A stretch of 36,134 nt of DNA from Opitutaceae bacterium (GTDB lineage: Bacteria; Verrucomicrobiota; Verrucomicrobiia; Opitutales; Coraliomargaritaceae). The DNA lies in assembly GCA_009886465.1 (NCBI GenBank), contig QXZH01000131.1, forward strand, positions 1 to 36,134, read 5' to 3'. Positions 11,305 through 15,529 of this stretch are shown piece after piece. The notes beneath the pieces were generated by a model, which saw nothing but the letters and a program-made list of their open reading frames with translations, was not told where the DNA came from and made no database searches. The translations under genes were made by a program, and so were the position numbers. The number at the start of each line of letters is the position of its first letter. Position 1 is the stretch's first letter.

Positions 11305-12225
11305 TTACCTCACAGCTTTCGTCTTTCGAACAAGCCTTGGCAACACACCATATTTAGGCGCAAAGAGCATCACAGTCGAAAAGATCAGCCCAGCCATTAC
11401 AGCCATCATTCCGGAGGTAGAGGTATCAGCAAAGCCGAACCAGGCTGGCACGATCAAGGCGCTCAAGTGCCCCAGCACAGCCGAACCCATTGCGATCAGC
11501 ACACTCAGCACAACCATCAACCAGAGCCGATCCGTGAGCAGATGCGCTGTCGCCGCAGGCACAATGAGCATCGCAATCACGATTATACTGCCCACGGCTT
11601 CAAAGCAAGCCACCGTAGTCACAGCCACGAGTGTCATTAAAAGATAATGCATTAGGTTTGAATTAATACCCATCGCCGTTGCTAGCTCTGCATCGAAAGA
11701 CGAGATGCGAAGCTCTTTAAAAAAGGCCACGACAAAGACTGCATTAAATAAGATGACTCCTGCCAAAACCAAGGCAGACCTAGGTACTTCTAGAAAGTAG
11801 CCATAGAGCGTAGGTCGCCAAACAACATCGAGTGGGGTCAACTCAATCGCACCATAAAGCACGCAACTCGGGTCGAGGTCGACATGGTCGGCTCCTTGCA
11901 CGATGAGCAAAAGCCCCAGCGCAAAGAGCGTCGTAAAGACGATTCCCATAGAGGCGCCCTCATCGACCTTACCAAAACGGCTGATCCACTGAGTAAAAAC
12001 AGCCGTCAAAACACCGACGATAGCCGCACCTATAAACATCGACAGGCTGGCACGTGCACCCGTCACCAGAAAGGCAATCGCCAAGCCCGGGAGCACCGCA
12101 TGGCTAATGGCATCGCCCATCATACTCATCTTACGAAGCACGAGGAAGTTGCCTAGCAAGGCACAAGCACCCGCCGCCAAAGCACCGATGACTACGATCC
12201 ATGTATCTATGCTATACCACTCCAT
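11305..12225 (-). CDS. Metal ABC transporter permease (ABC-3 family, TroD/YtgD position)
   Basis: This inner-membrane permease of 306 residues has about eight or nine hydrophobic helices. It belongs to the ABC-3 family that imports Mn, Zn or Fe ions. Family marks include LRKMSMMGDAISHAVLPG near residue 30 (the ATPase-contacting loop and conserved His) and AVGSIIVIAMLIVPAATA near 215. The segment HVDLDPSCVLYGAIE resembles spirochete TroD. It is the last gene of the four-gene importer run, 20 bases after the permease-repressor fusion, and probably forms a heterodimeric channel with it. The metal cannot be told from the permease sequence. Confidence 0.9.
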   Translation of the reverse strand: MEWYSIDTWIVVIGALAAGACALLGNFLVLRKMSMMGDAISHAVLPGLAIAFLVTGARASLSMFIGAAIVGVLTAVFTQWISRFGKVDEGASMGIVFTTLFALGLLLIVQGADHVDLDPSCVLYGAIELTPLDVVWRPTLYGYFLEVPRSALVLAGVILFNAVFVVAFFKELRISSFDAELATAMGINSNLMHYLLMTLVAVTTVACFEAVGSIIVIAMLIVPAATAHLLTDRLWLMVVLSVLIAMGSAVLGHLSALIVPAWFGFADTSTSGMMAVMAGLIFSTVMLFAPKYGVLPRLVRKTKAVR

Positions 12226-12245: not shown

Positions 12246-13595
12246 TCAGTCTCCTGGATGGATCGGGTGCGGACTCTGTGGCACGAGGCTACCGGCACTA
12301 CGGTAGGCTTGTAATTTATTCTCCAAGCGCGTGACCATTTTCTCACCAAGCACGTGCTCAACCATGTCGGCATCCCGGTCGACGCGACTCGTAGCAACAT
12401 CCGCATACTCGATCAGATACATTTCCCATAGTCGATGATTACGCGTGACTTGCGCCGCCTCGGCTAGTCCGGTTTTAGTTAATAAAATAGAATCCACTTT
12501 GTTGGGAGCTTCGACAAGCCCCTCATTATAAGCGCGACGTATATAGTCCCGTAGCTGCGTATCACTCCAAGTACGACGACCACGAATCTGGCGAAAAGGA
12601 ACTGTTCGAATATTCAATTCTTCGGTCACGCGACCTCCCTCCAAGATTTCGTAGAGCGCGCGAAGCAAATGCTGTCGTCCCATACGCTTTTTTAATTGCG
12701 ACTGCCGCAAGAAACGAAACATCACACCACGCTCCGTTCCGATGAGCATACTCACCACAAAAAAAAGTGCCGCGACAAGCACGATCACCGCACCTGCGGG
12801 GAGACGAGGGATGAAAGCACTCAAACTCGCACCAAGCCAACCACTGGCACCGCCAATCAGCGCAGAAAGCACTAGCATGCGGTCGAGCTGATTCGTCCAG
12901 AAACGCGCCGCCGCTGCAGGCGTAATCAGAAAGGCGATAATTAAAATCAAGCCGACCGCTTGCAAGCCAGTTACCGTCACGGCAGTGATGAGCGCGAGTA
13001 GTAGAATGTCGAGAAACTTAACTGGCCAGCCGAGCGCTGCCGCGAAAGTTTCGTCGAAACACAGCAGGCGAAACTCTTTAAAAAGCAACAATGAACAAGT
13101 AATCACACAAATTGTGACGAACACGAGGATTTGGAAATCGCTCATCACCATCGATGCTGTCTTGCCATAGATAAATGATTCCAAACCAGCCGCGCTCCCC
13201 TCGGGCATCGTCTGGATCACACCAAGAATAGCAATGCCTGCCCCGAAGAACACACTGAGTACGATACCCATCGCTGCGTCGTCTTTGATTCGTGTTTGCT
13301 CACGGATAAAGAGCACCGCCGCGCATCCGATTACCCCCGTGATGGCCGCACCCCCCAGTAATATGGGCAACGACTTTCCATCCCCACCCAGTGCAACCGC
13401 GAGGATGAAGGATAAACCAACGCCTGGCAGTGTCGCGTGCGAGAGTGTGTCCCCCATTAAGGAGCGCTTACGTAAAAGCAGAAAGCCACCCATGAGTCCG
13501 CAGGCACAACCCAGTAGCATCGTACAAATCACAACTAGGCGCGTGTTGTAATCGCGGAGAAAGAGAACGTTCCAAATGTCTGCTAACTCAGGCAT
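12246..13595 (-). CDS. Metal ABC permease fused to a DtxR/YtgR-type metal-dependent repressor
   Basis: This is a two-part protein of 449 residues. Residues of about 1-290 are an ABC-3 permease with LLLRKRSLMGDTLSHATLPGVG near 39-60 and AVGLILIIAFLITPAAAA near 213-230. Residues of about 305-449 are soluble and resemble a DtxR-family repressor: a winged-helix region (about 305-380, with SDTQLRDYIRRAYNEGLVE and ILLTKTGLAEA), then RNHRLWEMYL and ADMVEHVLGEKM. In DtxR terms His387 and Glu391 match His79 and Glu83, and Glu413-His414 match Glu105-His106, while the Cys102 position is Asp410. The end SPHPIHPG matches the family's PHG-PIP turn. The same fusion and gene order are known from Chlamydia ytgABCD, where the YtgR part is released by cleavage. 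Release here is inference. There is no stop or frameshift between the parts. Confidence 0.87.
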   Translation of the reverse strand: MPELADIWNVLFLRDYNTRLVVICTMLLGCACGLMGGFLLLRKRSLMGDTLSHATLPGVGLSFILAVALGGDGKSLPILLGGAAITGVIGCAAVLFIREQTRIKDDAAMGIVLSVFFGAGIAILGVIQTMPEGSAAGLESFIYGKTASMVMSDFQILVFVTICVITCSLLLFKEFRLLCFDETFAAALGWPVKFLDILLLALITAVTVTGLQAVGLILIIAFLITPAAAARFWTNQLDRMLVLSALIGGASGWLGASLSAFIPRLPAGAVIVLVAALFFVVSMLIGTERGVMFRFLRQSQLKKRMGRQHLLRALYEILEGGRVTEELNIRTVPFRQIRGRRTWSDTQLRDYIRRAYNEGLVEAPNKVDSILLTKTGLAEAAQVTRNHRLWEMYLIEYADVATSRVDRDADMVEHVLGEKMVTRLENKLQAYRSAGSLVPQSPHPIHPGD

Positions 13596-13631: not shown

Positions 13632-14444
13632 TCATCGCGACTGCACGACCTCGTTGGCTGCTTGGGTGAATAGCGTCAGCTTACCGCCGTAGGTGCGGCG
13701 GAGATTCTCTTGGGTAAAGACCTCGTCGGTTGGTCCCGCCGCGACAACGCGCATATTGAGCAAAACGGTCCAATCAAAATACTGTGTTACGGTGGCAAGG
13801 TCATGGTGTACGACGAGGACAGTCTTACCCCGCTTCTGCAATTCTTTGAGTAGTTCGACGATGGCACGCTCTGTCGCGGCATCCACTGCGGCGAAAGGTT
13901 CATCCATGAAATAGATATCCGCATCCTGCACAAGCGCGCGAGCGAGAAAGGTTCGCTGCTGCTGCCCTCCCGAGAGTTGGCTGATCTGGCGATGCGCGTA
14001 GTCCGCGAGCCCCACACGTTCAAGCGCCTCCATAGCAAGCGCCTTTGAGCGCTTGCTCACGCGACGGAACCAACCAAGTTTTCCATAGGTACCCATCGCC
14101 ACTACGTCGAGCGCACTCACCGGGAAGTCCCAATCCACACTCTCACGCTGCGGCACGTAGCCAACCCGCTTGCGCGCTTTTTTATAGGACTGACCGTAAA
14201 TACTAACCTCGCCAGAGCTGCGGGGAATCAGGTCGAGACAGGCTTTGATTAAAGTGCTCTTTCCCGCGCCATTGGGACCCACTATACTAACCAGTTTCCC
14301 TTCAGGAATCGAGAGATCGATATCCCAGATCACTGGTTTGCGGTGGTAGGCCACCGTAAGATCCCGGATCTTAAGCGGCAACGACTTTGAGGAGATCCCA
14401 GTCTGTTCAATTTGCATAAATGAATCGGATGTTTGGCTCATCAT
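13632..14444 (-). CDS. Metal ABC transporter ATP-binding protein (TroB/YtgB/MntB-like)
   Basis: This is the 270-residue cytoplasmic ATPase of the importer. It has Walker A GPNGAGKST, the Q-loop region GYVPQRESVDWDFPVS (the family's 'VDWDFP' form, typical of manganese and iron/zinc importers), the signature LSGGQQQR, Walker B DIYFMDEP, and the switch histidine in VVHHDL. The first 20 or so residues are a variable extension before the ABC domain. A second ATG one codon downstream, or MQIEQ, could also start it. It begins 7 bases after the binding-protein stop, so the two are translationally close. The permease fusion starts 36 bases downstream. Confidence 0.94.
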   Translation of the reverse strand: MMSQTSDSFMQIEQTGISSKSLPLKIRDLTVAYHRKPVIWDIDLSIPEGKLVSIVGPNGAGKSTLIKACLDLIPRSSGEVSIYGQSYKKARKRVGYVPQRESVDWDFPVSALDVVAMGTYGKLGWFRRVSKRSKALAMEALERVGLADYAHRQISQLSGGQQQRTFLARALVQDADIYFMDEPFAAVDAATERAIVELLKELQKRGKTVLVVHHDLATVTQYFDWTVLLNMRVVAAGPTDEVFTQENLRRTYGGKLTLFTQAANEVVQSR

Positions 14445-14451
14445 CGATCGA

Positions 14452-15447
14452 TTACTCGCCAGTCACTACTTCGCGAAAGCCCGCAGCTTGGCCGCCGAGA
14501 GCATTGGTGATGGTGGTGACGTTGCTATCAATCATACCGATGTAGGTGCCTTCGTAGGTGCCGGCTTGCCCCATCGCATCGGAGAAAAGAGATCCGCCAA
14601 TAATGACGTCATGCCCACGGGCACGGGCCCCCTCGACCAAGGCACGGACGTTTTTATCCGCCACCGAGCTTTCGACAAAGACGGCAGGGATCTGGCGCTC
14701 AACGATGAAGTCGACTAAATCTTCAAGATCGCGGACGCCCGCTTCAGACTCGGTGCTCATACCTTGGATACCCCTTACCTCAATACCGTATGCGCGACCG
14801 AGGTATTGAAAGGCATCATGCGCCGTGATGAGAACACGCTGCGACTCCGGAATTGTTGACATTACCTCTTTAGCGTATGCGTCGAGTGCTTCGAGTTGCT
14901 CGGCGTATACGGCAGCCTTACTACGATAGGCCTGGGTATTTTCAGGATCGTAGACGGCTAAAGTTTCCGCGACCACAGGTATCGCGCGGAGCCAGCCTGA
15001 GACATCCATCCACACATGCGGGTCGGTGTATGCCGAGCCGTCATCTTTTTCCAAAAGGTAGTCGGTCTCCTCAAGAATGGCTTCGGTCACGGCCTTGACC
15101 AGCTTACCCTTTGAAGCGATGCCTACGAGTACATCGGTCATTTTTCCTTCAAGCAGGAGACCGTTATAAAAAACCACATCGGCCTGACTCAACTTGATCA
15201 CATCGCCACGAGTCGGTTTGTAAAGATGCGGGTCAATGCCCTCGCCTATGATACCTTCCACCTCGGCGTAGTCACCAGCCAGGTTGCCGACAATGTCGGT
15301 GATCATGCCAACCGTGCAGACAATTTTGTAAGGCTCAGCAGATCCATCTGTATCGTAGCTAACATCCGGCTCTCCTGAGCAGCCCAAGAGGAAGTGGCTT
15401 ATCAAAAATACAGATATTGAGCAAAGTGTTGATCTATAGAAATTCAT
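14452..15447 (-). CDS. Metal ABC transporter substrate-binding lipoprotein (TroA/YtgA-like)
   Basis: This is the metal-capturing protein of the importer, a cluster A-I binding protein. I choose ATG 15447 (331 residues); the ORF track's 15462 start is a TTG that lies inside the inverted repeat described separately. The signal ends in the lipobox FLLGC with Cys23, so it is a lipoprotein. Metal ligands by family alignment are His in DPHLYKP, His in DPHVWMD, His in ITAHDAF and Asp in LFSDAMG. The third position is His as in TroA, rather than the Glu of manganese-specific PsaA. QGMSTESEA and FVESSVADKN also resemble TroA. Zinc, manganese or iron all remain possible. It is the first gene of the run. 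Confidence 0.92.
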   Translation of the reverse strand: MNFYRSTLCSISVFLISHFLLGCSGEPDVSYDTDGSAEPYKIVCTVGMITDIVGNLAGDYAEVEGIIGEGIDPHLYKPTRGDVIKLSQADVVFYNGLLLEGKMTDVLVGIASKGKLVKAVTEAILEETDYLLEKDDGSAYTDPHVWMDVSGWLRAIPVVAETLAVYDPENTQAYRSKAAVYAEQLEALDAYAKEVMSTIPESQRVLITAHDAFQYLGRAYGIEVRGIQGMSTESEAGVRDLEDLVDFIVERQIPAVFVESSVADKNVRALVEGARARGHDVIIGGSLFSDAMGQAGTYEGTYIGMIDSNVTTITNALGGQAAGFREVVTGE

Positions 15448-15483
15448 ACTTTGAATACTCAAAGTTATTATGACTTCAAAGTC
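15448..15483 (-). promoter_or_regulatory. Operator-like inverted repeat at the start of the metal importer operon
   Basis: Read on the minus strand, ACTTTGAGTATTCAAAGT (15465 to 15448) is a perfect 7-base inverted repeat with a 4-base spacer, ending right before the ATG of the binding-protein gene. A further copy of the half-site, inside GACTTTGAAGTC (15483 to 15472), lies just upstream. The size and symmetry fit a DtxR/MntR-class operator, and the only DtxR-like regulator in the window is fused to a permease in this same operon. No clear Shine-Dalgarno site lies between the repeat and the ATG. The function is inferred from position and symmetry only. Confidence 0.5.
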
Positions 15484-15529
15484 AAGATTGCAGGGGTATC
15501 ACATGCTAAGCCACTAGCTTAGTGGAATA

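Follow-up and report, generated by a model that had tools for sequence, protein, structure and literature searches.

The inverted repeat ACTTTGA-N4-TCAAAGT at positions 15448-15465 of the window (the whole stretch of 36,134 nucleotides of an Opitutaceae bacterium that was analysed) can be assigned with high confidence, from sequence comparisons, as a DtxR/MntR-family operator lying on the promoter of a metal importer operon. It is, in all, quite likely both an operator of this kind and one that is read by a standalone three-domain DtxR. The original prediction had named as its reader the DtxR-like fusion domain of one of the operon's permeases, with autoregulation as the outcome. This assignment is unsupported, because the class of the operator follows the standalone regulator and genomes with an unfused permease still have the box.

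The operon is encoded on the minus strand and comprises, in order from the operator, a lipoprotein, an ABC ATPase, a fused permease, and a second permease. The lipoprotein (14452-15447; PF01297) is a substrate-binding protein of the TroA/YtgA type (Mn/Fe/Zn); it belongs to the ZnuA/TroA family, and its closest solved structure is Treponema pallidum TroA (best PDB match, E 3e-78). It is followed by the ATPase of the Mn/Fe type (13632-14444), by an ABC-3 permease (12246-13595) which carries a C-terminal DtxR-like domain (PF00950 at residues 19-285, PF02742 at residues 373-429), and by the second ABC-3 permease (11305-12225). The fusion of a DtxR-like domain to an ABC-3 permease is the arrangement of the YtgR type. 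Relatives in the public record are Puniceicoccaceae/Opitutales of the Verrucomicrobiota, Coraliomargarita included. Elsewhere in the window, positions 342-1022 of the plus strand encode a small secreted protein with a PEP-CTERM-like sorting signal at its end.

The fused domain (12306-12692, minus strand) consists of a divergent winged helix-turn-helix (HTH) and a conserved metal/dimerisation part. The mean column identity was 54% in the HTH, which is Arg-rich in the family, and 77% in the metal/dimerisation part (RNHRLWE ... EH). The HTH family PF01325 was detected in the standalone DtxR and not in the fused permease (12246-13595). The domain is nonetheless predicted to adopt a DtxR fold (pLDDT 76, pTM 0.70), and the best PDB matches of the model were SloR and DtxR (Foldseek probability 1.0, E ~2e-3).

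The repeat was described in the original prediction as perfect and as ending right before the ATG, which is exactly what we found: two 7-bp arms separated by a 4-nt spacer directly adjoin the initiation codon of the substrate-binding protein (15447-15445, minus strand), and the minus strand reads TTGACT-N14-ACTTTGA-GTAT-TCAAAGT-ATG. It is thus an interrupted palindrome at a metal-uptake promoter, of the ~18-22 bp form that marks DtxR/MntR-family operators. Taken alone, the operator repeat is only modestly unlikely by chance: a 7-bp repeat whose loop is 8 nt or shorter is expected somewhere in the 150-nt gap with a probability of ~0.075, and within 10 nt of the ATG with a probability of 0.011. 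Against these modest odds, it is the conservation of the repeat that is decisive for its being real. The genome was scanned by pattern searches. As the original prediction had suggested, we searched for further copies of the motif, and found the exact pattern a single time in the 1.84-Mb genome, in front of the importer operon. Three further exact matches to the core TTTGA-N4-TCAAA were set aside as apparent chance matches, since the control count was also 3 and none precedes an evident metal gene. Two neighbouring elements noted earlier are indeed present, the additional half-site GACTTTGAAGTC at 15472-15483, which overlaps the TTGACT box, and the hairpin CTAAGC-CACTA-GCTTAG at 15506-15522. 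Neither could be retained as a part of the operator, because their conservation does not extend beyond the closest species.

Conservation of the operator itself is strong. The exact pattern was found in 28 of 44 family genomes, nearly always at the same place, while the reversed control pattern gave 0 matches. When this species was compared with 13 divergent relatives, the 18 bp of the operator (-18..0) showed an identity of 0.88, as compared with 0.23-0.29 (~26%, the background level) for the four 18-nt blocks upstream of it in the same relatives. Comparison of the regions upstream of orthologous operons was the check by which the predicted site could have failed; the repeat is conserved (88% versus ~26%), and this supports the view that a DtxR/MntR-type operator overlaps the start of the importer operon. 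Furthermore, the outer positions of the two arms change jointly, from ACTTTGA...TCAAAGT to ATTTTGA...TCAAAAT in five genomes (G004, G006, G026, G043, and G053) and in one operon of G038. Such paired changes are expected where a symmetric dimer recognises the site. Matches to a looser pattern, TTTGA-N4-TCAAA-NN-ATG, were also seen in distant families; most of them were judged to be due to chance and were left uncounted.

The geometry of the promoter places the operator with respect to transcription. The TTGACT -35 box (15480-15485, minus strand) is located 14 nt upstream of the operator, and a match of at least 5/6 to TTGACA lies 11-15 nt upstream of the operator in all 24 family members (24/24; shuffle mean 0.7). 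A Shine-Dalgarno (SD)-like motif was found in none of the 24 leaders (0/24). The fixed -35 box and the missing SD sequence together suggest that the operator covers the -10/start region of a transcript that is probably leaderless, or nearly so, with the +1 position deduced from that of the -35 box. No match to a strict sigma-70 consensus promoter was found on the operon strand. Since the intrinsic terminator of the upstream rplT transcript (15567-15536, minus strand) lies just ahead, the promoter of the operon should fall within the short stretch that holds the repeat. In two relatives, L047 (G036) and L048 (G030), the operator is followed by an ATT codon in place of the ATG; there, translation of the binding protein would have to start from a rare ATT or from a TTG within the operator.

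Across the order, operons of this kind carry either the ACTTTGA-type box (class A) or a different one, TGTAGC-N4-GCTACA (class B), the classes being assigned by eye and by pattern from aligned upstream regions. A three-domain DtxR is encoded in 39 of the 40 class A genomes and in 1 of the 14 class B genomes, whereas a two-domain MntR is found in 2/40 and 14/14, respectively (Fisher p ~2e-10 for the three-domain DtxR and ~4e-11 for the two-domain MntR, relatedness being ignored). Fusion of the permease makes no difference to the operator class (p=1). On the tree of the operon's own proteins the operator has switched at least 3-4 times. Among the independent pairs that were sampled, a difference in operator was matched by the regulator and in no case contradicted by it, the pairs being too few for significance (no tree-based p <0.05). 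Conservation of the site is therefore in step with its cognate DtxR-family regulator in the sense of an association. There are exceptions: G094 combines a class B box with a weak three-domain homologue, and no DtxR was detected in G142, which is 67% complete.

Gene neighbourhood shows the same partners. In ten genomes a three-domain DtxR gene diverges from the operon with the box in between (G044, G109, G113, G124, G131, G132, G144, G156, G163, and G165), and in G044 the box adjoins the start codon of the standalone dtxR. The two-domain MntR gene occupies the equivalent position in G070, G080, G108, and G121. The Verrucomicrobiales possess a third box, A' (ATCTTGA-N4-TCAAGAT), which accompanies an adjacent three-domain DtxR; several of the A' boxes are imperfect. 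Their DtxR has the recognition helix PGTVTxMM where that of class A reads PGTATxM, with the exception of L293, in which a PGTVT-like helix occurs with ACTTTG boxes. A metagenome-assembled genome of Akkermansia muciniphila (L326) has an A'-type box, TTCTTGATCGTTCAAGAT, upstream of its operon with the fused permease. When we asked which protein predicts the operator class, the recognition helix of the standalone regulator gave an AUC of 0.75, and the similarity of the fused HTHs gave 0.41-0.48 with close relatives dropped, which is the level of chance. Across the order, the comparisons thus indicate that the sequence of the operator goes with the standalone regulator and is indifferent to the fused domain.

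The original prediction had noted no other metal regulator. This holds for the window and not for the genome: a full standalone DtxR of 224 residues, with HTH, metal-binding, and FeoA/SH3-like domains, is encoded on another contig (G000:C58:5200-5871), which explains why it was missed, and three Fur-family genes also lie outside the window. The recognition helix of this DtxR reads VVPGTATTM. Its gene is away from the importer operon and no box was found beside it, so that the link between operator and DtxR in this genome rests on orthology.

An alternative is that the fused domain alone reads the site, possibly once released by proteolysis like Chlamydia YtgR, and thereby ensures autoregulation. 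The domain is encoded in the same operon, has a predicted DtxR fold and, in the family, an Arg-rich HTH, and cleavage followed by autoregulation has a precedent in Chlamydia (PMC5599777). However, the class A box is kept before unfused permeases (G020, G066, G133, and G142). Three different operators precede fused operons with similar fused HTHs, those of the Verrucomicrobiales A' operons resembling those of class B operons, and conversely one operator precedes operons with entirely different fused HTHs, those of remote class A operons being quite unlike that of the present operon. Together with the chance-level prediction of operator class and the undetected PF01325, these data make a fused-only reader very unlikely; the operator does not track the fused domain as YtgR-type autoregulation would imply. 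The possibility that both proteins read the site, with the standalone DtxR as the main repressor and the released fused domain as a second reader or heterodimer partner, would fit the retention of two DtxR-fold proteins together over most of the order. It meets the same objections, and the operator stays constant despite the drift of the fused HTH; we regard it as unlikely, if less so than the fused domain acting by itself.

A Fur-family protein (Fur, Zur, Mur, or PerR) would have candidates in the three genes of this genome, and copies of the box are linked to FeoB in some relatives. Yet the operator class tracks the type and adjacency of the DtxR-family regulator, Fur genes having been surveyed in this genome only, and the arms are unlike a Fur box, so that such a reader appears highly improbable. 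The repeat might also be imagined to form a hairpin in the mRNA at the initiation codon and to act in translation control or attenuation, since it touches an ATG that has no SD sequence. Given the fixed -35 box, however, transcription would begin within the repeat or beyond it, and elsewhere the box is located tens of nucleotides upstream of the ATG, or at the start of dtxR on the other strand. We rejected the hairpin on this promoter geometry, and it is hardly credible.

The standalone DtxR (VVPGTATTM; G000:C58:5200-5871), rather than the permease-fused domain, would then repress the operon as follows. With enough Mn2+ or Fe2+ in the cytosol, a metal-loaded DtxR dimer would occupy the palindrome over the -10/start region of the Mn/Fe (Tro/Ytg-type) importer promoter and block RNA polymerase; if the metal is scarce, the repressor would release the palindrome and the importer would be made. 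Because the fused domain has retained its metal-binding motif, it may sense metal for the permease. Tentatively, we propose that in Verrucomicrobiota it could be a built-in sensor of the importer, which would bind cytosolic metal and damp transport in a second feedback loop beside the standalone DtxR, without being the repressor of the operon. A secondary role in DNA binding is conceivable, given that Chlamydia YtgR represses its own operon once cleaved off.

Further boxes in relatives give hints of a regulon. Copies precede PF13557 and porin-like outer membrane proteins, TonB receptors, and FeoB, as compared with the one exact copy in this genome. In G012, a second perfect box (C4:130412-130429; L099/L110) directly adjoins the initiation codon (ATG) of a gene for a PF13557 outer membrane protein, and a protein of the same family is encoded within the importer operon of G044 (L061:2117-3007); the two observations suggest an outer-membrane route for the same metal. 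Class A boxes stand just before TonB-dependent receptors that share the cysteine motif CQNCG (L191/L192 in G046, L195 in G038). In G022 and G032, a box is found before a porin-like gene upstream of feoB, and in G027 a second, larger DtxR-like gene (dtxR) is preceded by a box with 2 mismatches. Class A-like boxes of these two kinds, near feoB or before a second DtxR-like gene, are L186 (G022), L197 (G032), L187 (G164), and L193 (G027); they hint at iron besides manganese. Taken together, the box copies in relatives suggest a regulon for Mn/Fe uptake. Among class B genomes, three tandem boxes spaced by 23 nt (positions 394-458 of L203; G108, Cerasicoccus arenae) precede an OprB porin gene, which heads the importer operon and diverges from a two-domain mntR.

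Permease-repressor fusions are already known (Chlamydia YtgC-R), and neither a DtxR regulon nor a permease fusion of Verrucomicrobia was found described in the literature searched. For metal control in a marine phylum, the analysis offers a defined operator together with its likely reader, as well as two cases in which operator and regulator have been swapped naturally. It also indicates that a permease-fused DtxR domain need not be the repressor of its operon, an inference usually borrowed from Chlamydia YtgC-R; if the sensor reading is true, many of the reported fusions might be transport sensors. The swap is directly testable, because cultured strains exist on both sides: Coraliomargarita sp. 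SDUM461004 for class A, and Cerasicoccus arenae and C. maritimus for class B.

Among known systems, the tro operon of Treponema (troABCDR) likewise encodes a TroA-type importer behind an 18-bp dyad near a sigma-70-like promoter, the T. pallidum operator overlapping the promoter, and T. denticola TroR, which contains an SH3-like domain, is responsive to Mn and Fe (PMC2628430). Here, in contrast, the regulator gene is unlinked, the permease bears an additional DtxR-like domain, and the operator directly adjoins the start codon of an mRNA that is probably leaderless; the likeness is one of layout. The Chlamydia YtgC-YtgR system shares both the operon type and the permease-DtxR fusion, which has been reported in 11 phyla (PMC5599777), and YtgR autoregulates ytgABCD by binding its own promoter after cleavage (PMC5599777, PMC6504234). 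However, no iron regulator other than YtgR has been identified in Chlamydia, whereas a full standalone DtxR coexists here and the operator changes follow it and not the fused domain. Two-domain MntR of the E. coli type is carried by the class B relatives (Cerasicoccus and others) along with TGTAGC-N4-GCTACA, often divergent from the operon. This box presumably resembles the E. coli MntR box, and the present genome has neither such an MntR nor a class B box.
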